Shown piece by piece: positions 18,113 to 57,342 of a stretch of 64,000 bases of DNA; the first letter of the stretch is position 1, and the number at the start of each line of letters is the position of its first letter. A program made the translations under genes and the position numbers. Origin of the DNA: Sphaerolaimus hirsutus. Taxonomy: Eukaryota > Nematoda > Chromadorea > Monhysterida > Sphaerolaimidae. The stretch lies in NCBI GenBank assembly GCA_964036195.1, contig OZ038455.1, forward strand, positions 4,853,855 to 4,917,854. Direction: 5' to 3'. The notes beneath the pieces were generated by a model. It was not told where the DNA came from and did no database searches. It worked only from the letters and a program-made list of their open reading frames with translations.

Positions 18113-18338
18113 TATAATTATAACAATGTGATAAAATAATTAATTACGAAGTTTTATGAACGGGGAAAGTAATAAGAACTCGTGCGGTCCAGTTGCCCGT
18201 GGGCAAAAGGGGTGCACGAGCTTCCTAAAAACACACGCACACTTTCACACACACTTCATACCTGTTATACCTGGTTCCGTGTTGTTTGACGCGACGGCGA
18301 TGGTCGTAACGGCTAATTAATCGGCTAATTAATCAATT
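18113..18338 (-). promoter_or_regulatory. pol-helicase spacer with candidate 3' splice site
   Basis: A 226-nt spacer. On the minus strand, GTGTGCGTGTGTTTTTAG/GAAG (acceptor at 18225/18224) is a pyrimidine-rich 3' splice site 112 nt before the helicase ATG. Helicase mRNA could therefore be made by splicing, as env mRNA is in retroviruses. This is an inference. Confidence 0.45.
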
Positions 18339-21300: not shown

Positions 21301-21530
21301 TGCAATTGGTTTTTTATCCACTAATTGCAACCGGTAGTCCACTAATTCGCTGTAGCCGATGTCGTACTTATGCCGGGCAAAAGCTTCTTTGTACTGCAAA
21401 ATCACCTTTTTCAGTTCCTCTCTGCGTTCGTCCGTCAACGTTTCTGGCACGGTGAATTCCATCACGTGTCCATCTGGACATGCAACTTGCAGTGGGGGTC
21501 CTAATTTGTCTTCGGCTACTTTGGGGGGGG
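18339..21530 (-). pseudogene. pol: Element 2 pol: RT, RNase H, integrase (frameshift and stop in this copy)
   Basis: RT starts in the -1 frame at the C8 run near 21530. The frame is broken by an extra base in a five-T run (21048-21052) and by an in-frame TGA (20991-20993). From 20990 it is open to TAA after YGDD at 18339. Visible parts: RT YIDD near 20838; RNase H ITDAS near 20380; integrase zinc finger HNHPTAGH..CPSC near 19440-19300; DDE residues in AVDAIGPL, LSDNAPSF and VERRNG (19220-18930); and the C-terminal GPY motif near 18485. The order RT-RH-IN and GPY identify a Ty3/gypsy or retrovirus-type pol. Both breaks look recent. Confidence 0.9.
21516..21530 (-). promoter_or_regulatory. Candidate -1 ribosomal frameshift site (C8 run)
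   Basis: On the minus strand the Gag-protease frame ends GAA CCC CCC CCA AAG TAG. The RT frame is the -1 frame across the same run. C CCC CCA fits the X XXY YYZ slippery pattern. Alternatively the C8 run has changed length by mutation in this copy. Confidence 0.5.
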
Positions 21531-27500: not shown

Positions 27501-27641
27501 TGCAGCAAGTTGTGCGTCCACTTCTTGCCCAGCCTTCTGTTGTCGCGCGCGCCTTCGTGCTTGTTTTTGCTTCTCCAACGCAGCGTGCCAAACTTGTTCT
27601 ATGGTGTCCCCTTGTAAGCTTGCTGGCCCCCTCGATCTCAA
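21516..27641 (-). CDS. gag: Element 2 Gag - envelope-like glycoprotein - aspartic protease polyprotein
   Basis: About 2041 codons in one frame. Order: low-complexity Ser/Glu-rich N-terminus (1-490); capsid-like region (~530-710); CCHC zinc knuckle CWECGSEEHIRYEC (~788-801); RGG-rich and Gln/Pro-rich linkers (~815-950); hydrophobic segment FFVLAIGLIIMGLALL (~1110), acting as signal or membrane anchor; a Cys-rich ectodomain with N-glycosylation sites and a furin-like RQKR near 1394; a second membrane span WIYLICALVTMQYLLAALM (~1655-1676); and a retropepsin domain with LLDTGA (~1807) and ILIGADVL. Stop is TAG 21516-21518, directly after a C8 run. The frame has no ATG before codon ~293; the first listed codon is TTG. 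A glycoprotein between Gag and protease is not the usual order. Confidence 0.85.
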   Translation of the reverse strand: MRSRGPASLQGDTIEQVWHAALEKQKQARRRARQQKAGQEVDAQLAAAESQAGDSESNDSVNPETEAPEALEESESQRWSGQTAEDTPVIRLSTVEGAGPAPDSFSQWKTPAVPAAARQLTSSAEAEEAPGTSRRAAGKEAGKTGKWSKLRRTLGWSAGSSSISPGVRSGSEVGSDGYVGDSEPLGQPSIQRDYPLIAAELGATADQFPVIENTVEELLETAAQSGDTSPALQLSPPKSTSTPRDVSGNSSRNLSSDQSRSQSATAKARRQLIKTEFSSKPPVIIISSSASRMTNNGANQTAAPALEDRYAKVNNANLIYQATIMDLDPVQTTPTCAQWTPKKACAAAKKWANMMSQARPIGAFSQNGEPGDLRMVALIKIAMNLWGSDPVAEVPRVEHFLQEFEAHHSAHGDDIVDLTTAYQQHNQALQNQNATLGGNSPASGQQPIVLTNGQTAPLQSSTVPAAPSSAAGTNQVRTVTQRRARSRSPASSRSSSATSEVVRPTDPGQNWQLEQSNAAVITALAQQCGYFRGKPNEGFRDWRRSWDTVCDALRIKLQERKPLVKLFLKGSARAIFNTRYRELRDLNYKDMMQALEKFYENPNDKHHAQREIFETRQGADESVLEWAVRLEKLIKRAYPGMGHEKRGDTCMIKFHGGLRNEIRRNVPVTASITWKEMVDNARAQESFLEAEQSQNKGEKSKQDVVASATDKVMDRLMALNMPAMAGLPSQADKTLETMEQKMTESVAKFDSVHQEIAKKLAQLGALEGKLLGLNRDPPKLPPRKFDKGCWECGSEEHIRYECPKLTPEQREQYFKRSRGGGASRGNGRGRGGGQRGGYQRNDQAQAMQPGMMPMQYAYPQWQPAQPMPVQPAQTVQRAGDMNMQPQMMAYQTPPANWMAMGPDGRMQQYNMQPVQVSNPHVESLNPTRVTSTTGMTMHVCEDDRCMMIRPVNKLIPVMQGLELEADEPDELVPESPEEQQRTTGMHVLAQEREFWIKPWAYMRTEKGYLFRTTWLAFLRRIGMHDLRETDCTLWPNCPADDHSDTLTEVPLDVLMNISLDPFLYATPAALPPRTGSSNQIDRYMGFLSTEEGVRPAPRAYSEPPYMPQVAQSLFFVLAIGLIIMGLALLPGAGATTMPSFPLLCSDLTDHYDLYTYPPLPNCTAIVDTTASLERPRKLTLTIYKRNMVEYRAAAHRCVASTRTARTYQNFWGDVTLEKFDSNPRSVGAAECEGMIKYHKCNNGPMTPVSDLDNAWDTQYPTNVSYSGHGLYCCKWVSETTPHCGLFRGEVRMRYGANTMQSTLGEVSKCNYEMGACTLEDGSQLTWKPNPKAECPYEKWREMHGRIRQSIWLADDHTLSLSFRAHEEVESCGIKLWKSDQDIVVAPFEKAVIRSVRQKRAQGRPTLGIVSAGQLAASMQAVYETAEQTMCAQAVATCKNVQHFQEFVRLAMSEHATTTARWYMNDNEIIAKPAPDGFLVHKCFAVKTYEIMKEKKSPECYETVPVQVSVHGQNVTLHMNRLTNILHFQAIPGSCTNAHNRVVMLNGQWYKYLPEVGGLEHLPMYNTHSFPQKWQQEKVKDVHHQIFAATTMYNLSELLPTTTLNDVCHAYSIVRQITQGAEPKVESHMQRHRTLAKSVLALGWWDFDTWRTRLQVWIYLICALVTMQYLLAALMAAAPETAVTLVNRAKEKIKRRPKTEEKSNIIVELAEDRPSEQVKVRTVINPCVGMPSGMPALTGARRFPAIQYSINRKCDLEEESVCMITFSTEERDNIHQVANRREEIVHVYYSPSITITIDGREYRRCLLDTGAMRSLCNRDVLMRHKEKATKHDEVSPIGALRCAADSKLLVLGQMEIPVTMGNHTFGIVFQAVNGLAGEILIGADVLRHMVVDLPARELRIPTANAIIPFDNPDPEVQQRRIYAIVNEKIEILARHEALVTAKLSAPMDEKLFTVMGLDTVGERCGVMAASAAYETSAPVFQVRCANVRNQPVVLQVGQRIAVVEPVDCVLKVKPGDPPAEWVKQCYDRDVCRQVQATEPPPK

Positions 27642-27736
27642 TTCCCTTTGGGGTGACTCGTTATCCGTGAAGCCGTTTTTTGTAGAGGCGTTGATCAGGC
27701 GCCCCAGACAGAAAACTTTATGGCTTGCTTAGGAAA

Positions 27737-40879: not shown

Positions 40880-41935
40880 TGTAGCCCTTCCACATTATCT
40901 TACTGTTGTATAGTGGTGTTATAGAATTGCTCGCTGCTGCAAACACCAGTGAGGGTCTTTGCCACAACATATCTGTACTTCCAAATATTGGATACCGTTG
41001 GTTTCAGATATGTATGATATTTCTTCTGAACCTTGATCACCGATTTTAAGCATCCATTTTCTCGGCTCCCGCATAGATGTGCCCCATCGTGACACCTCAC
41101 TTTTTGATGGGTTTATTGACACACTCTACTGCCATGCCCACTCACTGAAGATTGACATTAATTGTTCAAGATCACTGTCTTTCCTGACCAGCAGCACGAT
41201 GTCATCAGCAAAGAATAATGCTGGGATTTTACTCAGATTCCACCCACATTTGGCACCGAGACTGCTTACAAGTAATTTATCTGCCAGGTCATGCATGTAG
41301 ATGGCATATAGTGTTGGGCTTAACGCACATCCTTGTGCCACCCCCATGGGGTAATCAAGCGGTTGTGTCTCATACCCCCCATATGTCATTACAGCATTGG
41401 TTTTTTTGTAGACATTTGATATCACCATGATTATTTAATCTGGTATACACATATGTTTCATTTTGTACTGCAGTTTATTTGTATTCACTCTGTCAAAAGC
41501 TTTGACCAAGTCCATGAAGCATGTGATAAATTCATTGCCATTTGCTCGAGCATAATTGTAGCATTTTTTCATGATTTGGATATTGTCTAATGTCCTTCTG
41601 CCTGGTCTGAATCCCCCCTGCATTTTTGTCAGTGCATCAGTTTCTTCCAACCAGCATGTCAAGCATCTATTAAGTATTGACATGTATACCTTTTTTATGT
41701 TAGAGGATAGGCCCAACATCCTGTAATTTTTCAGGTTACCTCTGGCACCTTTTTGTGGAGAAGTATCATTCTGCATGTGGCCACAATTTGGGGAATTTCA
41801 CCACCTTCAAACCACTCATTGTATATTGCAACCAGTTCCTGTATGTGCTTCTCTTCTAGTAGTTTTAGGTGGTACCCCTGTGGTCCCATGTGATTTATTA
41901 TTCTTCAGAGCATGTATTGCATTCTATATTTCTAT
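40880..41935 (-). pseudogene. LINE (non-LTR retrotransposon) reverse transcriptase fragment
   Basis: The minus strand encodes LINE RT motifs: GGFRPGRRTLDNIQIM (41620-41570), DLVKAFDRV (41510-41480), VAQGCALSPTLYAIYMHDL (41350-41290) and FADDIVLL (41215-41190), followed by thumb-like sequence to about 40900. Frames change near 41750, 41430 and 41120, and both ends are truncated. No endonuclease or 3' tail is visible, so the clade cannot be fixed. Confidence 0.85.
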
Positions 41936-42202: not shown

Positions 42203-42332
42203 TTAAGCTTCTAAAAGCACCCAGTGTTTGGGGAAAAAGTCATCCTTAGAAAACTGCTGTTCCAATGGGCTGTTTGGTCTAACCCAAGGCTTCTGGTATG
42301 TGGTATGGCCATTTGCCAAGAAAGCTGCAAAC
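42203..42332 (-). CDS. GT11 gene exon 11 (terminal)
   Basis: 130 nt, phase 2 entry, stop TAA at 42203-42205. It encodes FAAFLANG and the C-terminal FFPKHWVLLEA, typical of GT11 C-termini. It begins directly after the MITE intron's CTG. Confidence 0.85.
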
Positions 42333-45300
42333 CAGGGAGCACTCCAAGACCCTGTAAAAGGCCTGGTAAAATGTAAAATGTCATGCAAAGTGTCAAAAGT
42401 CATTGAAAATGCCTGAGTTCAACCGAGTTGCCATTTTGCAGGGACTTTTCCATGACTTTTGACACTTTTCATGACATTTGACATTTTACAGAGCTCTTTA
42501 CAGGGTCTGGGAGTGGAACCAGCTGAATGTGCCAGTGGTGCCTGCAGGTTGAGATGTTTGTGGAGTTTTTTAAAGGATTTCTTCTTGAAAATGTTTGCAC
42601 TTACAAAGTTGAGTTGATCAAGACTGGGAGTGGATAATGAATCATGCCAAGAAGTTGATGGGTCCAATGTATTGGTCATAGCACTTAACAGGAAAAAGAT
42701 CGATGAGTAAACATAAGAGTTCAAGAGGAAGTTTAAAACTGAATTTTGATTTTGACAAAATGTTGATAGTTCAGCATGGTTGGAAGGCATCAGAAAAGTA
42801 CCCAAAATGTTCTCTAAAGCTGAAGTTACATTTTATTCCATTAAAAATGCTAAGCAAACATGTTTTGAAAAACTGCTGTGTAAGCCAGCTGGGCAAAGGT
42901 TGTGAGATCTCTCAAAAACAACCCGATCAAACTCAATAACAGTGTAGAGTTCACACAAACATAAAATAATGCAACAATATGAAATCTCGCTCACACTCAC
43001 TAATCGTATGATTGCACTGCGCCAAAATGCACAAATCCACAATAGCATCTTTATGCGGTTCCATTATTATAACATCAGTGTCATTTGGCATCGCATCTCT
43101 GGGGGCACGCACTCCCAGACCCTGTAAAATCCCCATAAAGTGTGAAATGTCATGCAAAGTGTCAAAAGTCATGTAAAATGCCCTGCCCTTGCAGGACATT
43201 TTCCATGTCTTTTGACACTTTGCATGACATTTGACACTTTACATGGCATTTTACAGGGTCTGGGACTGGCACCTGTTCCATTCTTCTTCATTTCCCAACA
43301 CAATGAAACGGATACACGGGGTGTCAGTCAATCTAAGGTATAAATTGTTTGTGCAATTTTTGATGTAATGAAGAATCAAGTGTGAAATATAAATGACACG
43401 ATTTTATGCTGCTGTAAAACAGAAAATTATAAAAGTCAATCTGTGAGTTGTAAAAGTCAATGTGTGACACTTTTTTTGCTTCATTTCTTAATGAGTGCTG
43501 GCACTGGGCTTTTATGAGTTTGGTGCCATGCCCAGTATCCATATTGTCTCATGGGCAGGGTTGGTTTTATAAAAATTCATTTTTGTAAAAGTTGTATAAA
43601 AATTTTATTTTATTTTAATTTTATTTTTGTTTCATTTTTTTTTTTTTTTTTTATTCCCAAAAGTCAATAATATAATAAAATGACACATTTTACAAAAAAA
43701 TACAAAAATTTTACAAAAATTTTACAAAAAATCATTAACATGCATGCAAGGCCAGAAAAATGTTATAATTAGACCTATACATGAAAAACAAATTTTTCCC
43801 TTACTTTTCAAAAGTTGCATGCAGTATGTATTGTTAGCTAGCTGCAAGTGTAAAGTTACAATTTTTGATAAGAATGGTTTTCATTTTCAGTAGAAGGACT
43901 ACTGGAGTGTGCTGGGCACATTTGTAAAATGTCATGCAAAGTGTCAATTGTCATGACAAATGTAAAGTAAAGTATCAATTGTCAGGCAAAATGTCAAGTG
44001 TCATGTAAAATTTCAAGCAATGTGGCAATTGTCATGACAAATGTCATGCAAAGTGTAAATTGTGTATCCAAATCTTGTGTTTTTGTATCCATAGTATGTT
44101 TTATATCCAAATCTTATGTTGTTGTATCCAAATGTTCACATAAGATTCAGAGTCAACAACAACATAATTTGGATACAAAACATAAGATTTCAAAATAAAA
44201 CATGAGATTTGAACACAATTTGCTTGATAATTGATACATTAATTTTTACATGTCATGACAATTTACACTTTACTTTACATTTGTCATGACATTGAACCCT
44301 TGGCATGACATTTTACATGACATTTGACACTTAACAATGCTTGGGACTGCCCCCAGTTCCATGAATAAACAGGTAGATACTCTAGCAATGAGACAAAATT
44401 TTACAAAATCTTTTATACAAGTTTTTATACAATTTTACAAAAATTTTACAAAAATTTGAATTTTTATACAATTTTTATTTTTATTCTTAAATTTTCCATT
44501 TTATTTTATTTTATTCTTGAATATTCCATTTTATTTTTATTTTATTTTTATTTTTTTCTGAGATTTTGCCAACCCTGCTCACAGGACACACCGCATCTCT
44601 GCTGGAAGAGGTGTTGATCTGGCAAGTGAGGCACCAGTGAACTGGGCCAATAGTGGATCCGGAATGTGAGTGAATGTGATTCAGTGATTTTGTGATCAAC
44701 TGTCCTATTTATATGCTATTCATGTGGCTGTAACGTGGGTGTTTTCTCACCTAGCTCAAGTGGAGAGATGGGTGCAATGCGGCACGGATGTGGCACATTG
44801 AAATGCTGAAATGGGCACAATGAGGTGCGCAAATGCGGCACATTGAAGTGTCAGGAGTGTGGAGGTGAACTCGTTGTGTTGAGTGAGACTCGTTATTAAG
44901 CCGGAATTACCGCTCAGAGGCGTTTGACGTGAAATGATGACGTCGTAAAATTGATTACATCAAAATAGACAAAGGTACAGCATTGAAATTTCAGAATTAG
45001 ATAGTTCTAGTAATTGTGTGTAATGTCCCAAAAAATTTATCAAATAATCATTATTTAAGTACCATATATCCTTGAAAAAAAAACCCTTGAATAATACCCC
45101 CCTTGAATAACACCCCCCTGTTGCCCAGGTGAGGAAAAAATAACGCCCCCCCTTGAATAACTCCCCCCTCTTGAATAAGTCCCCCCTGTGGGTAAAACGA
45201 TCGATGAGCAACACATGAAAATGAAAACCAGACACACAGAAAAATAAAGCTATGTCTGGGCTGATTCATCGAATGCAAATGGGGTTTGGTGTGTGAACGA

Positions 45301-48300
45301 AAAATACAAAAGAATGTTAGCCTGCAGCCAGGACAGCACAGCAGATACATTTTGTGTACGCAGCGTATGCATACCTACACTGCATGCCAATGAACACGAA
45401 TTTTAGGATGGATACATTGTTTTTGTTCTTGTTGAACTGGTCATTTTCTGCATTAGATGTGTTGACGGAATGCATACAAACAATGAATAAAGTGCAAGTT
45501 TTCCTGGAAGTTCTGAGGAAAAAATACCCCCCCCCCCCTTAAATAGTACCCCCCCTTGAATAACTCCCCCCCCAAAACCTCTGATGAAATAATAACGCCC
45601 CTGAAGTCTTATTCAAGGATATATGGTAGTTATTAATTTAACGTCAAAATTTTTTGGTGATGTAAAATGTTTGATGTGAAATGTTGACGTAGAATGTGTA
45701 AATTTTGACATAAAATTAATAACTTGTGATAATAATTATTTTGTAATTTTTTAGGACATTACACACAATTACTAGAACTATCAAATTCTGAAATTTCAAT
45801 GCTGTTCCTATGTCTATTTTGATGTAATCAATTTTATGACATCATCATTTCACGTCAAACGCCGCTGAGCCGTAGTAATTCCGGCTTAACAACAGCTTGT
45901 CTGTTTGAAGTCTCGTAAAACCCAATTAAGCACTAAAAAATACAAAAGATGACACGCCATGCAAGTGAAATGCCCTGACACTTTTCATGGGAATATGATA
46001 CCAACCACAATGGCCCACACACACTAGTTTTCACCGTGACCGATGTGAAAACTGAAATGGCGACATGGCAACATCCAGCCTACTCTTATTCTATGCTATA
46101 TGCGTTTTAGTTTTAAAAATTTTCTATTTTAACTTTCATTAATTTACATTCCAATTAAAATAAAATAAAATCATTCAACCATGTTCATTAATTTGCATTT
46201 GGAAAATTTTCGGTTTTCACATGAAGTCACTGTGAAAACTAGTGTGTGTAGGCACATTGGTGCTGTAAAAATGACAAAAAAACAGTTGCTGCATACAGTG
46301 CTTTTTTGCTTTGGCACTAGCTAGTGTTGGGAACAATCATCATGGTGTGCATCACTAAACTCAGTGTACTTCTTGTGAGATAATTTTGTTCCAGTTAGGT
46401 TTCAATACTTATGTCAAAAATTGAATTCCTCAACTTAGAATTGACTTGTAAAAGATAAAAACCACTCAATTTTCTCATGACTAACCTTTGCCTAAAATAC
46501 TGCACAGCCTTGTGTAAATATGATGACATTGCAGCCTGATGTCCAAATTTATATTTGTCAGGGGGCAGTCCCAGACCCTGTAAAGTGTAAAAAACCCTGT
46601 AAAGTTTAAAAGACCCTGTAAAATGGCATGTGTGATGTTAAGTAAAGTGTCAAATGTCATGTAAAGGACCCTTTAAAATGTCAAGTGTGATTTAAAAGAC
46701 CTTGTAAAGTGCATGTGTACCCAAATATTGTTGTATCAAATCCAAATCTTATGTTTTTATACAAATCTTATGTCTAAAAGTCAGATTTGGATATGATACT
46801 ATAAGATCTAGACACAGGTTTTTTACATGTTATAATGTGTGAGTGACACTTTACAGGGTCCTTAACATGACACCTGACATTTTGCAGGGTCTTAATCACT
46901 TTTCAGGGGGGTTTTCTGGGTCTGGGACTGGCACCAGGTAGTGCAAAATCGCCCCTTCGACAGTGCACGCCCACATATGTGCACATTTCTGGGAGTGGAG
47001 TTTCAGATGATTAGCCTGACAGGTTTTTCTGTATTGGTAGTCATTGTACCGTATTACCTCGAATTATCCCCCCCTTGAATTAACCCCCCCTCGAAATACC
47101 CCCCCTAAATTTCGGCTGAGGAAATAATAAACCCCCCCCTCGAAATACCCCCCTAAAATTGAGTGTAAAGAGAACGCACATGACAAATACCGCAGTTTGT
47201 TATCTGTACAAGTCAGAACACACGTTAAGACTGATGATTGAGTGATGTTAGGGAAGGATTTATGTGTATATACAGTTATATATGCCTAAAAACACATATA
47301 CGTCTATGTAAACGCTTGATTTTCCCACGTCTGAGTATGCGGAATTTCTGAAAATTTCTGGCGAAATAATAGACCCCCCCTCGAATAACCCCCCCTCTCG
47401 AATTATCCCCCCCCCCCCTCAAATTTTGCTGGCGAAATAATAAACCCCCTGGGGGTATTTCGAGGTAATACGGTAGTTCTATTGTGTGGTTGCCTTTATC
47501 ATTTTTTGAACTAAAAGTTACAATCACTTTGCGAATAATGGATTTTATTTTACATTTGATCATTTTTGCATTGCATTTTTACAGTCAATCTAACTGTGAC
47601 CGCGACCATTTACGCTGAGTTTTGGACATGACTTAGGTATTGATTGACATATTGTCCATGACAAATTGGAGACCTGTATCAATATTAGTGATGGAAAAGC
47701 GCCAGGAAAAATGGCGCCAGGCGCCAATGGCGCCATCTGAAAAAAAGGCACCGGGCGCCGAAGGGCGCCAGAAACAATAGCGCCAGGGGCCAAAATGGCG
47801 CCAAAAAAATTCAGAATTTCAGCCTGTATATCACCACGGAAGCATTTGTAGAAGAGCAACGTGCTGTATCATTTTCTGATGGTGACTCAAGCCACAAAAC
47901 TCATTTTATCATCAATATTGTATACCATACTTCCTAGAAACACCCTCAGGGGTTTGTTTTTTCACCAACAAATTTTGAGGGGGTTAAATAAATTGTCTAT
48001 TATTTTGCCAGAACTTTCAAGATATTGTATTATCTATTCATTACTTAAGGTCATTACCTACATAAAGTCGGCAGACGTATCGCCCTACAAAGATTTGCGT
48101 CAAACTCTCCAGTGGAGAGTGCATGACGGCATTAGGTATTGTGACACAATATTTTAACCATTGGAATAGATTGGGTCACATACGAAAACTTGGTCCTTAT
48201 CCCAGTTACCAGTTGCGTATTATACAAATGAGAGTGAAAACTGAAAGTTAGCTAAAAATCGTTAAAATTTGCTTCGCTTTGCCAATTTCCACATTCATAA

Positions 48301-51300
48301 TCGCTATTTTTGTTTGTATACATGGTTATATAGCTATTGTGAGCCTATTTTATTCATATTAACAGCGGATTTCGAAATTTTGGTCGGTTGCCAAGTTCTC
48401 TTCTGTTGGAACGTAGCCAACGAATGAAAGATAAAATAAAAACAAAAACGGTAGTTTGAACGGTCAAATTGCATGTTGCAATAGGCAATGTTGAAAATGT
48501 AGATAACTAGGGCGTGGCACGCACGGACGCAGCGAAACGTCCATTTTTCTTTTAATATGAAATACCTTTTCAATTTCTAGCGTCCGCGTGGGACACAAGT
48601 TTCGTTGTTCGCTCTATTCACGAGCGAGTTCTAACTCTCCGATTTTGTAGGGTGAAATGTCCGCCGACTTTTACCGTATTTGCTTGAATAATTCTACCCC
48701 TTTAATAGTTCCCCCTCAAGAAGGTCTGGCAAAAAATAATTTCAGTGGGCAATTATTCAAACAAATACAGAATATAAGTATGTCGCGCCCCTACCTAAGC
48801 AACTACTGTGTTTCCTTTGATAAACCCCCCTCAAAATACCCCCAGATCTGAGAAAGCTGTGGAAATAATAGACCCCGAACGGTATTTCATGGAAATAGGT
48901 ACATAATCAATTGTGTAAGGGCTGTCGATCAAATCAATTTAGATTGACATTTTTCTAATTGTCATACTTGAAGATTTGCAGTTTATGTGGTATGTATTAA
49001 ACAATCAACATGAGCCTAAACGTGCAATGCTGGCAAAAAATACAATGGTGGATGTCTTTAATATCACCTAAATGGCATAATTCAGCAGAAAAGGCAGTTG
49101 AATATATCCAAAAATAACCGTTCATCCCGGTATCCTGGCGCCGTTTCTGGCGCCATCCAAAACAATGGCGCCGGGCGCCAAATTGGCGCCAGCGAAAATG
49201 GCGCCAAGCGCCAATGGCGCCATTCGAAACAATGGCGCCAGGCGCCAGATGGCACCACAAAAAAGGACGCCAAGCGCCAATGGCGCCATGGCGCTGGCGC
49301 ACTTTGGCGCCATTAAATGGCGCCAGCGCCATGGCGCCATTCCATCACTAATCAATATTAGCATTCAAAATATCCCTAGGGATCTATTTTTTATTCAAAA
49401 ATATCTTAAATTTATTGATATTTTCTTCAGGATTTCCAAATTTAATTTTTTTTATAAATATAATTACCGTATTTCCTCGAAATACCCCCCGGGGGGTGAT
49501 TGTTTCATAGTGGTCCCGAGAGGGGGGGGGGTTAAACGAGGGGGGGGGTATTTCGAGGGGGGGGGGGGGTTATTGTTTCACAAGAAAATTTTTGAAAACC
49601 AAGTACAAAATTGTCGTCTGAAACGTACGCAGACGTCGAAAAATGCAACAAAAACCGCCATTTATAAGGTTCTGTAGACTAATATTGGTACGTAGATGGT
49701 ATAAACACTGTTCTAAAATGATTCCGACATTGTTTTAACGTGTGTTCTGCACTACGCAGAACACAAACTGCAGTATTTGTCATGTACGTTCTCTTTACAC
49801 TCAATTTGGGGGGGTATTTCGAGGGGGGGGGTGATTGTTTCATAGTGGTCTCGAGAGGGGGGGGGGGGTCAAACGAGGGGGGGGGGTATTTCGAGGGGGG
49901 GGGTATTTCGAGGAAATACGGTAGGTAGATTTCAGCTTATTTGTGTAACTTTTGTCCAAAGAAACATTCAGGTATATTAACTTTCACACACCTGGAACTG
50001 CATTCTCTGGCAGCGTGCCATTTACAGATGCCAGTAATCGATTCTGGCATTTTGCCAGGATGTGTGGTTTGAAGGTGAATTCTCGCCTGCGAGAAACGTA
50101 TTTACCCTAAATCCTCGAATAAGACCCCAGGGGAGTTATTTTTTCCTCAGACGTTTTGGAGGGGGGAGTTATTCAAGGGGGGAGTTATTCGAGGGGGGAG
50201 TTATTCAAGGGGGGAGTTATTCGAGGGGGGAGTTATTATTTCCTCAGGAAACTTGGACTTGATTCATTGTATGGATGCAGCATGTAAACTCGTTAAATTC
50301 AGGTATTTCACCGTCCAATAACAACAAAACGATGTGTATACACTGCATACACATTATGTATCTGCTGTCGCTGTCATAGGCTACTATTCTTTTATAGTTT
50401 TGTATTGTATTCTTTTCATCCGAGGGAGGAGTTTTTAAGAGGGGGGAGTTATTCAAGGGGGGAGTTATTTTTTCCTCACCGCGCCAGCAGGGGGGACTTA
50501 TTCAAGGGGGGAGTTATTCGAGGGGGGGGTCTTATTCGAGGATTTGCGGTATATATTTTGAGAAATTGTTAAGTGCTGCCAGAAAAACGCTGCGTATTTA
50601 TGTTGGGGAGAGGGATACTTGACGACTTGACGTCATTTTAAAAAAGGTATTTTTTTGCAGGTCTGGGTTTGGAAATCAAGCCTTGAAAAGATTGAGTTCT
50701 ATGAGAAGGAATAAAAAGTGAAAACAGTAATGCAGCGCCTGCATAATTACACTGTAAACAGAATCCTTCTAGAAACTGAAAATTGGTAGAACTGTTTTTG
50801 CAAGAATAGTGACGTTCAATAGCATTTTTAGAATTCCTTGTTTGTTGTCAAAATGTCAAAAAATTATTCATTAAAATAAAAAAATCAGTCTATTAAAAAC
50901 AGTTTCAAAAATGTGCAGTTTTCTAGAAAGAGTCAGTTTACAGAATAAGACATTATAATATTCTTAAACAATGTTAATTGTCTAAATTTACTGCTGAAAG
51001 TTCCTTTGAAATTTATTCTAACCTTCTCACTTCATCTAATGTATTTTCAAAATATTTGAATGCAGCCAAATATCCGTTTAGAATAACGTCAGTGCCATTG
51101 TGCACCACATAGAAGTGCTTGTTAGCAGAGCAGCACGTTGACTCTGATAGAATCAGGGGTTTATCAAAGGTACTCTGTGAAAATTTAGAAAAAAAATTGC
51201 AGGGTACATACATGCAAGGTTTTGTAGCATATCAATATACCCATGTAGGTATTTCAATATGACGATGGCAAACCCTCTGAAGAAAGGTGCTAATTTGTAA

Positions 51301-54300
51301 GTGTCTTTAAAAAAATTAACTTTAGAATTAATTCCAAAAATGCTCGAAATTGCTATCGTTACACTTTATGGCAATAACCCAATTTTTTTAGTTTTGTCAG
51401 CTAGGCCCCGGATTGACCACCTATTTCCTCGAAATACATCCAGGGGGTTCATTATTAAAGCAGAAAATTTTGAGGGGAGGGGGGTTCGAGGTTTATTGTT
51501 TAATTGCAATTCCAATTGCGATTGAGGCCTCTACTTCTAAAAGTCGACAAGTCCACAAAATGTGATTTTGAGTAAATCGCATGTTAAGTTTCCGATTCAA
51601 TTCCAGGCCCGCGGTGCGTGTCCAATTTGGCTCTCTCATGTTTTCCATTAAGTTCCATATGTTGACAATAAAGTGCCAAATTTTCAGCCCCTGCTCTCAA
51701 CCTATATGTGAAAAATGGTGTCCATAAATTTCCATTCGGTCAGAGCAAAACTGTTTTTGGGAGGGAAATGGACCTGTCGCCTTCTTGGACTTGAGAAGAT
51801 TTTTGTTCCCGGCGACAACGTAGCTGCCTTATGGGCAATTTATGGACTTGTCGACTTTTAGAAGTAGCTGTCCATGATGGACAAATCACATTTCTTGCTA
51901 TTTTTTCCGTAAAAAAGGACGAAGAGGATGGACTTGTCGACTTCTTGCTCTAAACTAAGTGGACTTGTCGACTTCTTGCCCGAAATTTTTGCATTTTTCA
52001 CAAAAAATGTCAAATTTGGCACTTTGCCATATGGGCATGTGAGGTCAAAAAATTTATGGAAATGATAAAAAATGTGCGGAAGTAGCCCCAGATGACGTTT
52101 CCGGGCCTAACTCGAAATTTTCATATTTTGGACTTGTCGACTTTTAGGAGTCTGCAGCATAATCCAAGTGCGCATAATCCAAGCAGGCATAATCCAAGCA
52201 CAAAATGGGGCATAATCCAAGCATAAGTGCAGCATAATCCAAACAAAATGCTGCATAATCCAAGCAAAACACTCCTACCCAAAATGGAGCATAATCCAAG
52301 CAAAAACCAGGCGTAATCCAAGTACCCCTCACCTAACACTCTGCATATATGTACTATTTATGTATTCTATGGGGTCAATTTTTTTGTGTAACTAATAGCC
52401 AATGTCAGTGCAATTAAGAGGAATCAACATCAATTTTGTATGGAATCTTATTTGTATTCCTAAATACTTTTATTACATATTGTTGCATTGTATATTTCCG
52501 ACATAACAAATTATATTACCATATTACCTCTAATATAAGGTATACCTAATATTGTTTTCATCAGATTTTTTGAGCCAAATGTTATGCCATATATTAGAGG
52601 GTACCATCAATTATTTTCACCAGATTTTAAAGAAATTTGACCAACAGTGAACAATGATACAATTCATTTTTGCAAATTGGAATGTACAATACATTACCTT
52701 ATATTACCTTATATTAGAGGGATGCCTTATATTGGTGGTAATACGGTATATATATGTATATTTCTACTATATGAATACATTCTAAAAAGAATCAGCAACA
52801 ACACAACTGTAATGCACACTGTAATTTATGCCATTGACCTATGTGTGAACTTTGCACACCCCTAATAATGCTGCATGCACATTTGCACTGTACTGTACTT
52901 AAATAAATAATTACATAAGACCAGTGCTTGCTTGGATTATGCTTGGATTATGCCTCATTTCTGCTTGGATTATGCTGCACTTGGCGGCACAAAAATTGCA
53001 TGTAACCTTACACCAATAGTGCTTGGATTGTGCGCAAAAATTGCTTGGATTATGCCTGATTGGATCATGCGCACTTGGATTTTGAGCTTTAAATCGCATG
53101 TTAAGTTTCCGATTCAATTCCAGGCCCGCGGTGCGTGTCCAATTTGGCTCTCTCATGTTTTCCATTAAGTTCCATATGTTGACAATAAAGTGCCAAATTT
53201 TCAGCCCCTGCTCTCAACCTATATGTGAAAAATGGTGTCCATAAATTTCCATTCGGTCAGAGCAAAACTGTTTTTGGGAGGGAAATGGACCTGTCGCCTT
53301 CTTGCACTTGAGAAGATTTTTGTTCCCGGCGAGAACGTAGCTGCCTTATGGGCAATTTATGGACTTGTCGACTTTTAGAAGTAGCTGTCCATGATGGACA
53401 AATCACATTTCTTGCTATTTTTTCCGTAAAAAAGGACGAAGAGGATGGACTTGTCGACTTCTTGCTCTAAACTAAGTGGACTTGTCGACTTCTTGCCCGA
53501 AATTTTTGCATTTTTCACAAAAAAATGTCAAATTTGGCACTTTGCCATATGGGCATGTGAGGTCAAAAAATTTATGGAAATGATAAAAAATGTGCGGAAG
53601 TAGCCCCAGATGACGTTTCCGGGCCTAACTCGAAATTTTCATATTTTGGACTTGTCGACTTTTAGAAGTAGACGCCTCAATTTAATTGCATCGAAATTCC
53701 ATTGTTTTATGACAATTGGCAAAATTCAGCGTTTTGAACGCTTTTAAACAAAAGATGATGTTGCATTGATATGGAAGGCATTGCAATGAATAATTTCGTC
53801 TAATTTATGAATCGGGTCCAGGGTTGGCAAAATCTCATAAAAGAATAAAAATAAAATTAAAATAAAATGGAAAATTGAAGAATAAAATAAAATAAAATAA
53901 AATGGAAAATTTCAAAATAAAAATAAAAATTGTATAAAAATTCGAATTTTTGTAAATTTTTTGTAAAATTGTATACAAATTCATATTTTTGTAAAAATTG
54001 TATAAAAATTCATATATTTTGTGAAAAAATTTTTCTGTTGTTTATAGTTCAACCTGGTCATTCGCGGAGCTGGGGCAGTCCCAAGCCATGTAAAGTGTCA
54101 AAATGTCATATGAAAGTGTCAATTTTCATGAAAATGTTAAGTAAAGTGTCAATTATCATTACAAATATAAATTAAAGTGGAAACTGTAAAGCAAATTTAT
54201 CCAAATATTACTTTTGTATCCAAATCTTGTTGTTTTTGTAACCAAATCTTATGTGAACATTTGGATACAAAAACATAACACATAAACTAGCTAACAATAC

Positions 54301-57300
54301 CTACTGCATGCAACTTTTGCAAAGCAATGCCAAAATTTGTCACACGTTTTTCATGTTTAGGTCGAATTATCACATTTTTCTGACCTTGCCTGCAAGATTC
54401 TGATTTTTTGTAAAATTTCTGTAAAATTTTTGTAAAATGGTCCATTTTATTTTTTTATTATTATTTTCGAATAAAATAAAATAAAATAAAATGAAACAAG
54501 AATAAAATAAAAATAAAATACATTTTTATACAATTTTTATACAATTTGTATACAAATGATTTTTATAAAACCAACCCTGATCTGGTCGATCAAATTTGCG
54601 CGGCAGTCGATCATTATATTTACCGTATTTCCTCGAAATACAAAGGGGACTTATTTTTTTGAGTGAAAATTCAAAGTGCCGTATTACCTCGAATTAACCC
54701 CCTCCCCCTTGAATTAACCCCCTCCCTCGAAATACCCCCCTAAATTTCGGCTGAGGAAATAATAACCCCCCCTCGAAATACCCCCCCTAAGATTGAGTGT
54801 AACGTGAACGTACGTGACAAATACCGCAGTTTGTGATCTGTACTATGCAGAACACACGTTAAAACTGATGATTAAGTGACGTTAGGGAAGGGTTTTTGTG
54901 TATATACAGTTATATATGCCTATAAACACATATACGTTCACATATACACATACACATATAAACACACATATAAACACTATGTAATTGTTCGATTTTTCTA
55001 CGTCTGCGTATGGGGAATTTCCGGAAATTTCTGGCGAAATAATAGACCCCCCCCCCCCCTCGAATGAACCCCCCCTCGAATTACCCCCCCCTCAAATTTT
55101 GCTGGCGAAATAATACACCCCCTGGGGGTATTTCGAGGTAATACGGTGGGTGTATTTCGAGTAAAAACGGTATTCATTTGCATTTTCCGGCCAATTAAAT
55201 TCGGGCCCAGCTGTCAGAAAGGATAACTAACAGGTTTATTCTCTACTAGAGGTATGCTTAACTCAAACCAATCATACAGCATAGATTTATGTTCGAAATC
55301 AACAAATGGGTCAATTTTGTGATATCTGGAAAGTCCATATAAACTGGCATAGACCATCATAGCATTTCCCACCCCGTGGTTGTGTGGGTCATAAAGAGTA
55401 ATGTGATTTGAGGAATTCTGCATTAGGGATTATATTGGTTTGTTATACTTAGAATTGGAATTTGGTAAAAATGTCAATTCTTATGTTTTCTTGAATTGTT
55501 TGTCGTGCATGGTGAACATGGTGCTGATTTTCAAAATTTTGATCCTTATTTAGCAGTTAGAAATGGAAAAATTCACAGTTCTATATTTGCTTGATGTCAC
55601 TCCCTTCATTATAAAGATGGCATTTATTTAGAGATAAATGTAATATTATTTAGAAGTGATCAATGATCTAATGCATTTATCTAGGTACTGATGTAAATAT
55701 TCTTTTGTTCAATATCCAATCAAATATATCAAATGTACACAAAACACCAGAAATGAAAACACTCACAAACACTTCATATGGCTTCACAGGATGATCCCTT
55801 TCCCATGCACGTGTCTGCAATTTCTGCTGATTTATGCTCATTTCAGTAATTTCTAATGCACTTATTTTGTGTTCAGTTGAATTGCCAGCAATTCTCACTG
55901 TCAAATTTGCAGTGCCACTTCTCAATTTTCCAAACATCTTCAAGGAGTTCAATACATGCCTTTGAAAGCCTTGCTGGATCGATGTTACCCCCATTTGAGG
56001 TTGAACCTGCGTAATCAAAAGTGAGTAAAAGTAAATGTGAAAGTCGTCGCTTTCCATACCCGTCGCAACTTCAATCAGTTCCGTTGCCATTTTTTGCAAC
56101 CATTTTAATTAGTTTGACTCGTTTTTCTTTGCTTTTTTGCATGCCCTCAATTTTTCGAAATGAGATTTTCTGTACTCGCGAACTTTCAAAAAAGTACGCG
56201 TAAAGATGCGTACAGGTATGTTTCTGGAGGAAACGCGTACGTATTTACTCAGTACTCTAGAATAAGGGAGTACTCTAATATACCGTATTACCTCGAAATA
56301 CCCCCATGGGGGTTTATTATTTCGCCAGCAAAATTTGAGGGGGGGTTAATTCGAGGGGGGGGTTTATTCGAGGGGGGGTTTTATTTTTTTGCCAAAAAAT
56401 TTCGTGGAATTCGTAGTAAAGAATATGCGTTTTCTTACACAAAAACGGTAATAAATGTGAGAATATAGGTTATATTGGGGCTATAGATGTACATCTGTAC
56501 ACAAATGAGCGTATAAGAGTAGCTGCGATGCAAATAAGTAGTAATAAATACATCATGTACATTGCATACATGATGTACATCATTCCTGAGGGGGGGTATT
56601 TCGAGGGGGGGGGTTTATTATTTCCCCAGCCCATTTTGAGGGGGGGTTAATTCGAGGGGGGGGTTAATTCAAGGGGGGGGACAATTCGAGGTAATACGGT
56701 AGTAAATACGTTTCAACAACTATGTCCAAAAAAGGCGTTATAAAGGTGCAAAAAAATCCAGTAAGACGTCCGACAAACAGATGGACTTATCGACAACTAT
56801 CTTTGCAACAACTTTTGTTGTCCCTAATCCTGGAAAAATTGCCATATGAACTTTTTTTGGACCTTTTGGCTTTCATCATGGTTCGTGGACTTATCAAATT
56901 GATTACTATTTTCCCAACGACAAATTTGCTACAAAAGTGGATTTGTCAACGTGTAGTCTGATTCAGATTTGACTTGCCGACCTCTTATCCAATTTTTCTG
57001 TAAATTTTTGACAAATTGTAGAAAAATGGCAGCAAGGTTATATTGACAATTGATTGGAAAATGTCAAAACTTCAATTTATGGTCGTCAATTTGGTCAAGT
57101 CGTAAGTGGTCAATTTATCGACTTGTAACTGATTTCGCCAATTGTGTCTTGAAACTATCAAAAATTTGACGTCTAATTTTTAGAATCCCTGATTTTTAGA
57201 ACTTCTTCCCGCGATAAACAAAGCAAAATAGCGACAAAAGTACCTGATTTGCATACGCAATGAACAACGCGGCCAGAACAATTAAACAAATGCATACGGT

Positions 57301-57342
57301 AGCTTTCCACCATTTGAATTCCTTTTTTTGCACCATGGCCAT
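42203..57342 (-). CDS. GT11-family alpha-1,2-fucosyltransferase-like gene, 11 exons
   Basis: Exons (minus strand): 57342-57244, 56006-55767, 55417-55232, 51174-51023, 50087-49992, 46988-46935, 46558-46486, 43332-43273, 43098-43001, 42541-42520 and 42332-42203. Every phase fits, and the sum is 1210 nt, or 1209 (402 residues plus stop) without one extra base in exon 5. The product has a short cytoplasmic tail, a single membrane span (residues ~13-31), a glycosylated stem (NLT, NST), and GT11 motifs: VGNAMMVYASLYGLSR, VHCRRGDF (donor-binding HxRRxD-like), ILAQCNHTI, GTFSW..FAAF and FFPKHW. Such enzymes add fucose to galactose in the Golgi from GDP-fucose. Introns 6, 8 and 10 are single foldback MITEs. 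The extra base in exon 5 is either a sequencing error or a disabling mutation. Confidence 0.85.
42333..42519 (-). mobile_element. Intron 10 = CWG foldback MITE (introner), GT..TG ends
   Basis: It starts GTTCCACTCCCAGACCC and ends GGAGTGCTCC followed by CTG. The exon before it also ends CTG, so the 3-bp duplication is CTG. The length is 187 bp, not a multiple of three. Removing MITE plus one CTG restores the TGTFSW/WFAAF frame. The 3' end is CTG, not CAG. Confidence 0.85.
42520..42541 (-). CDS. GT11 gene exon 10 (22 nt micro-exon)
   Basis: The acceptor is CTCAACCTGCAG. It has phase 1 entry and phase 2 exit and encodes TTGTFS plus partial codons, the conserved GTFG-type turn after CNHTI. Confidence 0.8.
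43001..43098 (-). CDS. GT11 gene exon 9
   Basis: 98 nt, phase 2 entry, phase 1 exit, with donor GTGAGTG. It encodes DVIIMEPHKDAIVD and LCILAQCNHTI, the strongest GT11 C-terminal-lobe motif. Confidence 0.88.
43099..43272 (-). mobile_element. Intron 8 = CWG foldback MITE (introner), GT..AG ends
   Basis: It starts GTGCCAGTCCCAGACCC and ends CGTGCCCC followed by CAG. The preceding exon ends CAG, the 3-bp duplication. The length is 174 bp. The arms carry CTGTAAAATG / CATTTTACAG inverted motifs. The intron begins at the first base of the MITE and ends with the duplicated CAG, so it is both transposon and intron. Confidence 0.9.
43273..43332 (-). CDS. GT11 gene exon 8
   Basis: 60 nt, acceptor ATACCTTAG, phase 2 on both sides. 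It encodes CIRFIVLGNEEEWNR, matching the GT11 strand before the CNHT motif. Confidence 0.87.
43556..44577. mobile_element. hAT-like element, CAGGGTTGG/CCAACCCTG family, in intron 7
   Basis: Imperfect 8-bp duplication CTCATGGG / CTCACAGG. The AT-rich ends have TTTTACAAAAATTTTAC runs. It hosts a foldback fragment at about 43910-44356 that ends GGGACTGCCCC followed by CAG. Confidence 0.75.
44892..45893. mobile_element. Foldback DNA element in intron 7
   Basis: Long inverted arms run from GTTATTAAGCCGGAATTAC to its counterpart ending CCGGCTTAACAAC. They share GCGTTTGACGTGAAATGATG and about 150 bp beyond. A TA-type MITE (45062-45626) sits in the loop. Confidence 0.75.
45062..45626. mobile_element. 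TA-type MITE (CCATATATCC ends), nested
   Basis: TA on both sides. The ends are CCATATATCCTTGAA and TTCAAGGATATATGG, with C-rich arms (CCCCCCTTGAATAA). Confidence 0.8.
46015..46251. repeat. Foldback repeat CACACACTAGTTTTCAC
   Basis: Inverted ends CACACACTAGTTTTCAC and GTGAAAACTAGTGTGTG with an AT-rich loop. Fragments recur at 38237 and 58307. Confidence 0.65.
46486..46558 (-). CDS. GT11 gene exon 7
   Basis: 73 nt, phase 1 entry, phase 2 exit, donor GTTAGT. It encodes KYKFGHQAAMSSYLHKAVQY, the GT11 segment following the RRGD motif. It starts directly after the MITE intron. Confidence 0.87.
46559..46934 (-). mobile_element. Intron 6 = CWG foldback MITE (introner), GT..TG ends
   Basis: It starts GTGCCAGTCCCAGACCC and ends GGGACTGCCCC followed by CTG. 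The preceding exon ends CTG. The length is 376 bp (one more than a multiple of three). Exact removal joins RRGDFALP to DKYKFGH. The loop carries the same ATCCAAATCTTATG inverted blocks as the 30249 copy. The 3' end is CTG rather than CAG. Confidence 0.88.
46935..46988 (-). CDS. GT11 gene exon 6
   Basis: 54 nt, acceptor CCACTCCCAG, phase 1 on both sides. It encodes MCTYVGVHCRRGDFALP, containing the GDP-fucose-binding HxRRGD-type motif. Confidence 0.9.
47049..47463. mobile_element. TA-type MITE (CCGTATTACC ends)
   Basis: TA on both sides. The ends are CCGTATTACCTCGAATTATC and CGAGGTAATACGG with C-rich arms. It lies in intron 5. Confidence 0.8.
48065..48671. mobile_element. Second copy of the 603-bp mariner-like MITE
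   Basis: It is aligned end to end with 36739-37341, sharing AAGTCGGCAGACGTATCGCC and the CCGCCGACTT end. TA precedes it and TTA follows it. Confidence 0.82.
48674..48770. repeat. Short TA-type MITE
   Basis: It begins CCGTATTTGCTTGAATAATT and ends CAAACAAATACAG, directly next to the 48065 MITE. Confidence 0.6.
49467..49921. mobile_element. TA-type MITE (empty-site copy)
   Basis: The ends are CCGTATTTCCTCGAAATACC and CGAGGAAATACGG, with TA on both sides. It is the same subfamily as 36519-37572 but without the nested 603-bp element. Confidence 0.85.
49992..50087 (-). CDS. GT11 gene exon 5 (one extra base)
   Basis: 96 nt, acceptor GTTTCTCGCAG, donor GTGTGTG, phase 2 entry. It encodes EFTFKPHILAKCQN. 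With 96 nt the exit phase (2) does not match exon 6 (phase 1). With one base fewer near 50040/50041 the phase fits, and the continuation LLASVNGTLPENAV resembles the GT11 family better. Confidence 0.8.
50105..50549. mobile_element. TA-type MITE in intron 4
   Basis: The ends are CCCTAAATCCTCGAATAAG and CTTATTCGAGGATTTGCGG, with TA on both sides and GGGGGGAGTTATTC arms. Confidence 0.78.
51023..51174 (-). CDS. GT11 gene exon 4
   Basis: 152 nt, acceptor TTTTCACAG after a T-rich tract, phase 0 entry, phase 2 exit, donor GTTAGA. It encodes VILNGYLAAFKYFENTLDEV, matching the GYFQSWKYF-type GT11 block. Confidence 0.88.
51408..51500. repeat. TA-type MITE fragment
   Basis: CTATTTCCTCGAAATACATC followed by a G-rich arm. 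Only one end is recognisable. Confidence 0.5.
51524..53678. mobile_element. GACTTGTCGAC-family element with duplicated core, in intron 3
   Basis: The inverted ends are GAGGCCTCTACTTCTAAAAG and CTTTTAGAAGTAGACGCCTC, each followed by GTCGACAAGTCCA or its complement. Two near-identical direct copies of the ~570-bp core (about 51567-52140 and 53085-53668) flank a second foldback (52155-53075). A single-core copy is at 60035-60644. Confidence 0.75.
52155..53075. repeat. GCATAATCCAAG foldback cluster
   Basis: A left cluster of direct GCATAATCCAAG copies (52155-52325) and a right cluster of the inverted CTTGGATTATGC (52920-53075) surround an AT-rich loop. It is nested inside the 51524-53678 element. 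Confidence 0.75.
53819..54579. mobile_element. hAT-like element, CAGGGTTGG/CCAACCCTG family, in intron 3
   Basis: 8-bp duplication ATCGGGTC / ATCTGGTC. AT-rich arms as in the 10256 and 43556 copies. A partial CWG foldback (GGGCAGTCCCAAGCC) sits inside at 54067-54290. Confidence 0.78.
54623..55170. mobile_element. TA-type MITE with a second copy nested inside
   Basis: The outer ends are CCGTATTTCCTCGAAATAC and TTCGAGTAAAAACGG with TA. The inner copy 54679-55146 (CCGTATTACC..GGTAATACGG) is flanked by TG on both sides. Confidence 0.7.
55232..55417 (-). CDS. GT11 gene exon 3
   Basis: 186 nt, acceptor CCTAATGCAG, phase 0 on both sides, donor GTTAGT. It encodes HGVGNAMMVYASLYGLSR, the GT11 N-terminal motif (GxGN..YASLYG). 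Confidence 0.9.
55767..56006 (-). CDS. GT11 gene exon 2 (stem region)
   Basis: 240 nt, acceptor GATTACGCAG, donor GTGAGT, phase 0 on both sides. It encodes a luminal stem-like segment with N-glycosylation sites NLT and NST. It is not conserved with known proteins I recognise. It is assigned by phase and position between exons 1 and 3. Confidence 0.7.
56283..56699. mobile_element. TA-type MITE in intron 1
   Basis: TA on both sides. Ends are CCGTATTACCTCGAAATACC and CGAGGTAATACGG, with GGGGGGTTAATTCGAG arms. Confidence 0.8.
57244..57342 (-). CDS. GT11 gene exon 1 (membrane anchor)
   Basis: 99 nt from ATG 57342 to donor CAG/GTACTT, phase 0 exit. It encodes a basic cytoplasmic tail (MAMVQKKEFKWWK) and the hydrophobic span ATVCICLIVLAALFIAYA, the layout of a type II Golgi glycosyltransferase. 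A second ATG lies two codons in. Confidence 0.8.

Follow-up and report, generated by a model that had tools for sequence, protein, structure and literature searches.

A miniature DNA transposon of the nematode Sphaerolaimus hirsutus that seemingly forms GT-TG as well as GT-AG introns

DNA-transposon introners are known, and some of them carry the GT of the 5' splice site and take the 3' acceptor from their target site duplication (TSD), as described in PMC9860276; the same source, a survey of 3,325 eukaryotic genomes, places introners in just two animal groups. GT-TG introner classes are found in the alga Micromonas, where IE-B and IE-D have 25 and 6 members, respectively, in the account given by PMC3879977, and the tunicate Fritillaria provides a case of non-canonical splicing (PMC13326754). 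Here, we analyze a family of miniature inverted-repeat transposable elements (MITEs) in the nematode Sphaerolaimus hirsutus, three copies of which lie in a GT11 (alpha-1,2-fucosyltransferase-like) gene within a stretch of 64,000 nucleotides (C7:4853855-4917854, contig OZ038455.1; hereafter, the window) of an assembly totaling 348,482,957 bases. Judging from sequence comparisons, we think it quite likely that these MITEs constitute a DNA-transposon introner family in an animal, seemingly producing GT-TG besides GT-AG introns.

Like the introner described in PMC9860276, the elements of this family appear to make introns by carrying a GT and obtaining an acceptor from the TSD. That case has 4-bp TSDs and no terminal inverted repeats (TIRs), whereas the family described here has a 3-bp CWG TSD, clear TIRs with a hairpin, and an animal host, and about half of its targets give TG rather than AG. 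The likeness to Micromonas IE-B and IE-D lies in repeated introns with GT-TG borders (PMC3879977); unlike those classes, the present family is a MITE family thousands strong, in which AG and TG versions would arise from the same element through one letter of the target. The hairpin introns of euglenids (PMC6221363) and those of Amoebophrya (PMC7789003) are also similar, with inverted repeats joining the exon ends and direct repeats at the borders, but their borders are described as variable, whereas here the 5' GT is fixed and direction matters. A literature search (introners and Harbinger; introners and intron gain since 2023) found no such family, which may be in print elsewhere, the subscription literature being outside the scope of the search. 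PIF/Harbinger MITEs with a CWG target are not known to act as introners.

The GT11 gene lies on the minus strand at 42203..57342, from a likely Met at 57342 to a stop codon at 42205-42203. Its exon borders were read by eye, apart from those at the three MITEs, and the remaining introns were joined by hand. Introns 6, 8, and 10 each consist of one inverted-repeat MITE plus one copy of its CWG duplication, with the borders and duplications located as the initial annotation had claimed. All three are on the minus strand. The intron 6 element (373 nt, GTGCC...GCCCC) occupies 46562..46934, between a CTG that forms the last bases of exon 6 (46935..46937) and a second CTG, the putative TG acceptor (46559..46561). 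The intron 8 element (171 nt) occupies 43102..43272, with CAG at the end of exon 8 (43273..43275) and again as the AG acceptor (43099..43101); its end is slightly altered and reads GTGCGTGCCCC. The intron 10 element (184 nt, GTTCC...CTCC) occupies 42336..42519, with CTG at the end of exon 10 (42520..42522) and again as the putative TG acceptor (42333..42335). Two of the three MITE introns (6 and 10) end in CTG, that is, they read GT-TG.

With the three MITEs removed, the hand-joined exons match the Pfam family Glyco_transf_11 (PF01531) with E 5.8e-30 over residues 17-285 of 287, and there is no gap at the three MITE junctions in the alignment with one distant GT11 protein, the only match returned by a protein database search. 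MITE removal restores the GT11 protein, as had been proposed. The removed lengths (element plus one TSD copy) are 376, 174, and 187 nt; all three had been said to disrupt the reading frame, which is true of 376 and 187, while 174 keeps the frame, though with an in-frame stop. The elements of introns 8 and 10 are predicted to form RNA hairpins of -121.8 kcal/mol (z -18.1) and -94.6 kcal/mol (z -13.0), respectively.

A 19-nt end pattern of the family was matched 11 times in the window at up to 3 mismatches, compared to 0 matches in 100 shuffles. The genome-wide search for MITE ends that the initial annotation had called for, made with a 22-nt end pattern at up to 2 mismatches, returned 9,249 forward and 9,248 reverse matches, and the reversed-pattern control returned none in either direction. 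Near-equal forward and reverse counts are expected of copies with one end on each strand, and they would put the family at roughly 9,000 copies, provided that each copy matches at both ends. In the loci that we read, the ends are GTGCCAGTCCCAGACCCTGTAAAATGCCC and GGGCATTTTACAGGGTCTGGGACTGCCCC, an end also being given as GTGCCAGTCCCAGACCC. The left end begins GTGCC as first described, but the two ends are not alike, the right one usually being GCCCC; 49 of 66 elements sampled outside the window without selection on the TSD begin with GT and end with CC. Most called elements are 113 to about 400 nt long, and they combine TIRs, a TSD of fixed length, and high copy number in the manner of MITEs. 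We judge from their length that they have no coding capacity.

The target consensus is close to ACC[CWG]GGT, which we read as the palindrome ACCWGGT (160 readings from 86 elements, 74 of which were read on both strands, with CAG-selected loci included). Among the 58 of the 66 unselected elements that begin with GT and do not end with AC, the TSD pairs were 15 CAG/CAG, 15 CTG/CTG, 5 CTG/CAG, and 0 CAG/CTG, with 23 scattered, which supports a 3-bp CWG duplication for the family at large. Zebrafish Harbinger3 likewise duplicates 3 bp, CWG, inside ACCWGGT. A 3-bp TSD in a palindromic target (CWG within about ACCWGGT) is of the Harbinger kind, given that ACCWGGT is the zebrafish Harbinger target. 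The suggestion of a PIF/Harbinger-type transposase fits this target and the presence of at least 163 matches to DDE_Tnp_4 (PF13359) in the genome, where 150 of 306 candidates were scored; what did not follow is a transposase copy tied to the MITE ends. Among the 15 PF13359 matches listed on contig C1, none was found by eye to be bracketed within 5 kb by exact ends of the MITE family, and one is flanked on a single side by a 171-nt MITE copy at a distance of about 3.3 kb. A transposase of this type may be the source of the family's mobility. Dozens of DDE_Tnp_4 copies score almost alike, each matching over 633 nt that cover about 147 profile positions and contain four TGA codons; these may be members of a recently spread family whose transposase domain carries a shared insert or intron of about 190 nt.

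To look beyond the GT11 gene, we joined the flanks of each element minus the element and one TSD copy, translated every frame on either strand that remained open through the junction, removed low-complexity translations, and compared the rest with Pfam. The unselected set yielded 135 translations (74 sense, 61 antisense) from 54 of the 66 elements; L088, L090, and the window elements were left out, and for the other elements lacking a translation no frame passed. Eight cross-junction matches were accepted in this set: OSCP1 (two insertions, OSCP1a and OSCP1b), ETFDH, the C-terminus of Na,K-ATPase, innexin, AMP-binding, calpain, and a GT11 paralogue, L069, whose match is below the Pfam cut-off and was accepted because the locus is a paralogue of the window gene. 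Twenty loci with CTG at the left end gave 51 translations and four further matches, namely GPCR-like, BCKDHA (below the Pfam cut-off; PDB E 2.9e-14), cyclin Y, and SLC23. Ten further CTG-left loci, from which candidates were picked by eye, added the N-domain of Na,K-ATPase (identified by PDB), CNOT9, and a sugar transporter. The OSCP1, innexin, AMP-binding, calpain, and GPCR-like matches are above the Pfam cut-off when run singly; calpain is below it when run in the pack, reaches E 1.4e-4 alone, and has no PDB match. The innexin match (E 3.2e-7), in an exon outside the window, points to an animal host.

Leaving out the paralogue L069, these matches make up 17 insertions, three in the GT11 gene of the window and 14 in other conserved coding sequences. 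In every one the interruption of the protein equals the element plus one TSD copy, and the element's GT stands at the 5' splice site position, which extends the introner-like pattern first proposed for a single gene. PDB alignments are gap-free at the junction for BCKDHA, SLC23, cyclin Y, both Na,K-ATPase insertions, CNOT9, the sugar transporter, and ETFDH; for CNOT9, whose junction is GT...CTG, the alignment is gapless over 100 of 100 residues (E 3.5e-51). Retention of the element would create an in-frame stop within it in 14 of the 16 insertions tested (calpain left out) and a frameshift in the remaining two. As expected of introners, the putative introns are numerous and similar, with the likeness reaching both borders (17, plus the same three in the GT11 paralogue, with borders placed from the proteins); the coding sequence is restored, homology runs across the junctions, and a TSD copy is left in the exon.

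These borders bear on whether old, ordinary introns could later have been filled by MITEs. Such a case exists (L096), but in the 17 insertions the element's first base and the TSD are themselves the borders, no host intron sequence lies outside them, and the first copy of the TSD is exonic; we therefore consider this origin very unlikely for the family.

The direction of the elements is also informative. The sample consisted of the 54 unselected elements and the elements of the 20 CTG-selected loci, and, with both strands offered, all 12 accepted cross-junction Pfam matches (8 + 4) are GT-first (2 x 0.5^12 = 0.0005). Paired inverted repeats can be removed from transcripts by SOS splicing, in which they are seen as an mRNA hairpin and excised and the ends are joined by RTCB, no splice dinucleotides being needed; AKAP17A and CAAP1 are further factors. 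This process is known in animals, as a review states (PMC13247085). It would suit the very strong predicted hairpins and would account for indifference to CAG or CTG, but it should ignore element direction, which the 12 matches do not, and it gives no reason for the acceptor-side excess of CAG reported below. We regard SOS splicing as improbable here. Programmed somatic excision of the DNA, resembling that of internal eliminated sequences (IES-like), would keep the element out of RNA altogether and, by exact removal from TSD to TSD, would restore the protein equally well. It predicts neither the GT-first bias nor the CAG excess, and copies are also present in ordinary introns (L096), so that we give this explanation hardly any credence.

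Given a CWG duplication, about half of new introns are expected to end in CTG rather than CAG. This is a point that the initial annotation overlooked: CTG-type copies of a CWG family imply GT-TG introns. Its proposal that the terminal GT is the donor and the target duplicate the acceptor fits the CAG copies; for CTG copies it would require a TG acceptor, a harder claim that had not been spelled out. The 3' AG of a canonical GT-AG intron is present in 8 of the 17 insertions (GT11 intron 8, OSCP1a, ETFDH, Na,K-ATPase C-terminus, innexin, AMP-binding, cyclin Y, and Na,K-ATPase N-domain), and the other 9 end in TG (GT11 introns 6 and 10, OSCP1b, calpain, GPCR-like, BCKDHA, SLC23, CNOT9, and the sugar transporter).

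In exact genome counts, the donor-side TSD copy is CAG in 744 cases and CTG in 646 (p 0.009), and the acceptor-side copy is CAG in 883 and CTG in 610, an enrichment of CAG at the acceptor relative to the donor with an odds ratio of 1.26 (chi-square p 0.0024). Because the donor and acceptor copies derive from the same duplication, this difference points to CTG-to-CAG change at the acceptor. Three of the insertions in conserved genes have mismatched TSDs (AMP-binding, cyclin Y, and the second Na,K-ATPase); in each the left copy is CTG and the right one CAG, and none has the opposite order. An acceptor-side shift toward CAG is predicted by splicing through the spliceosome and not by SOS splicing or DNA excision. 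The smaller CAG excess at the donor side could come from weaker purging of CAG copies.

A different reading of the same counts is that only CAG copies are spliced, as ordinary GT-AG introners, and that genic CTG copies are young, not fixed, or deleterious and still to be purged, or are spliced at nearby AGs with small protein changes. The acceptor-side CAG excess, the CTG/CAG elements, and the in-frame GT-AG alternatives near most TG cases all agree with it. It is harder to reconcile with the CTG/CTG copies in CNOT9, BCKDHA, OSCP1, and calpain, with the similar genome-wide counts of CTG and CAG at the left end (646:744), and with the history of the GT11 gene. The paralogue L069 (G000:C1:13036043-13040043), on another contig, has all three MITE introns in the same places. 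The exons compared are identical at 400 of 421 nt, with no indels and a pN/pS of 0.37, while the three elements are 87-91% identical to those of the window with 18 to 57 gapped positions. At the acceptor, the CTG of intron 6 is TTG in L069, and intron 10 has CTG in both, so that TG is kept in both copies; intron 8 keeps its AG despite a small shift. Introns 6 and 10 therefore predate the gene duplication, and the exon conservation indicates that the gene was under protein selection after the TG-type insertions. Since the L069 introns carry the same MITE, the shared positions do not refute an introner origin. On balance, splicing of CAG copies only seems to us unlikely, though far from negligible.

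For the use of TG, the nearby GT-AG alternatives matter. Within about 45-60 nt of the borders, the GPCR-like insertion has no frame-keeping GT-AG alternative, and the sole one for BCKDHA nets +12 codons. At the remaining seven TG cases such alternatives are available, but conserved residues would be exchanged, inserted, or deleted; because an in-frame GT-AG is near in each of these, TG use rests on protein conservation and not on the absence of AG. From these comparisons, we consider TG likely, though not proved, to be the acceptor in these introns.

Human introns offer a comparison. TG-AG acceptor pairs in a human survey have a distance limit of 28 nt, with the AG thought to serve the first step of splicing and the TG the second (PMC2374985). 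Of 129 called elements of the MITE family, 115 have a CAG, usually TTTTACAG, whose last base is 19 nt short of the intron end, so an AG lies within 28 nt, as at the human U2 TG 3' sites (PMC2374985). Human TG sites in that survey are alternatives beside a used AG and never constitutive, whereas splicing here at the internal TTTTACAG would retain 19 nt of the intron and break the reading frame, for which reason we rejected it as the real acceptor. Structure prediction places this AG in the paired stem of the hairpin, with the CWG at the base and largely open.

We propose the following mechanism. A non-autonomous PIF/Harbinger-like MITE would insert near ACCWGGT and duplicate CWG. Where it lands in a coding exon with GTGCC first, the transcript would read CWG, then GTGCC...TTTTACAGGGTCTGGGACTGCCCC, then CWG, with a splice border directly after each CWG; the element's own GT would be the 5' splice site and the second CWG the 3' splice site, and the mRNA would be restored exactly. 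The canonical TTTTACAG 19 nt upstream would be locked in the hairpin stem, with the CWG exposed at its base. In the first step of splicing, the 3' region may be specified by the stem-locked AG; exon ligation may then use the exposed CWG, whether this supplies AG or TG. Insertions in the CTG register would be born as GT-TG introns and tend toward GT-AG by T-to-A change. Within this scheme, the element borders, the TSD, the continuity of the proteins, the orientation bias, the CAG excess at the acceptor, and the predicted hairpin are results, whereas splicing as such, the use of TG, the separate roles of AG and TG in the two steps, and the transposase are inferred.

Several observations weigh against an introner family with working TG acceptors. 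The sample is partly selected on the TSD, 7 of the 17 insertions coming from loci chosen for a left CTG, and the unselected confirmed cases comprise 5 AG and 3 TG (L069 included). Frame-keeping GT-AG alternatives exist near OSCP1b, calpain, CNOT9, SLC23, the sugar transporter, and GT11 introns 6 and 10; young CTG copies may represent alleles that are harmful or not fixed; and human TG acceptors always stand beside an AG and never alone (PMC2374985). In the AMP-binding match, about 19 positions of the profile, at some point within the aligned stretch, have no counterpart. Some copies run the other way: at L025, a GG-first (reverse) copy at 1500-1669 sits in the part of a GDT1 (TMEM165-like) gene that encodes the N-terminus, where the matched domain starts past the junction, and L099 and L104 are possible coding insertions in the reverse direction. 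The reversed copy at L099 (264-450 from the reverse-strand start) begins with GC when read along the possible coding strand and would have GC...AG borders, perhaps through a rescuing mutation. A CxC5 match on the GG-first strand of a composite 550-nt call at L010 (E 0.0015 packed; 2.5e-5 alone, below the cut-off) was dropped and is read as a shifted frame of the OSCP1 exon; counting it, the GT-first orientation would be 12 of 13. Copies are also present within ordinary introns, as at L096, and most sampled copies are without any coding match.

We see about an even chance that an animal spliceosome uses TG as a working 3' splice site in hundreds of introns of one transposon family, the hairpin hiding the AG and presenting the target's CWG, and GT-TG introns being born at scale and evolving to GT-AG. 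At roughly 9,000 copies, some of them inserted in CNOT9, cyclin Y, Na,K-ATPase, and OSCP1, this would be a large animal introner family, although that figure counts copies and not introns. Because one letter of the target sets an AG or a TG end, the family would provide a natural experiment on how strictly the spliceosome requires AG, and the CTG-to-CAG changes would allow intron optimization to be followed. If the proposed reading is true, a route from transposon to ordinary intron would be visible, and constitutive TG acceptors would be a real difference from the human TG sites.

Other candidates were set aside. Open-frame statistics alone (joined versus shifted flanks) gave a small in-frame excess on both strands and were abandoned; we put the excess on both strands down to antisense frames in GC-rich coding DNA and turned to homology for that reason. 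Thirty CAG-left loci (L031-L060) were judged by eye and not as a Pfam set, and they hold 2 confirmed cases (OSCP1a and Na,K-ATPase, counted under L010 and L027) versus 7 in the 30 CTG-left loci. We dropped DUF6894 on the calpain segment, PI3_PI4_kinase in L096 (a one-sided match), and VWD in L014 and PDZ in L056 (both below the cut-off). No Pfam match above the cut-off was obtained for L112, L115, L117, L067, the first element of L068, L097, L099, L104, L019, L017, L051, or L040. The OrsD, ROS_MUCR, and zinc-finger rows of L011 were all below the cut-off and went uncounted; this locus has a 180-nt, GT-first element near 2124-2303 with a zinc-finger-like frame, CAG at the left, and TTGCAG at the right.

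The window contains further repeats. A longer relative of the MITE, with a GGGGGCAGTCCCAAGC end, lies at 43923-44354 inside a GT11 intron, away from the intron borders. A second repeat family with abundant CCCCCCTTGAATAA and CTCGAAATACCCCCC units was seen by eye in many copies, including 45069-45604, 47057-47448, 49500-49920, 50150-50560, 54720-55170, and 56290-56700. Just 3' of the gene, at 41000-41800 on the minus strand, is what appears by eye to be a fragment of a reverse transcriptase of the long interspersed element (LINE) type. Farther away, at 14141-27728 and 4202-6511 on the minus strand, open reading frames of 1332, 883, 2070, and 769 amino acids resemble, by eye, parts of a large retroelement.

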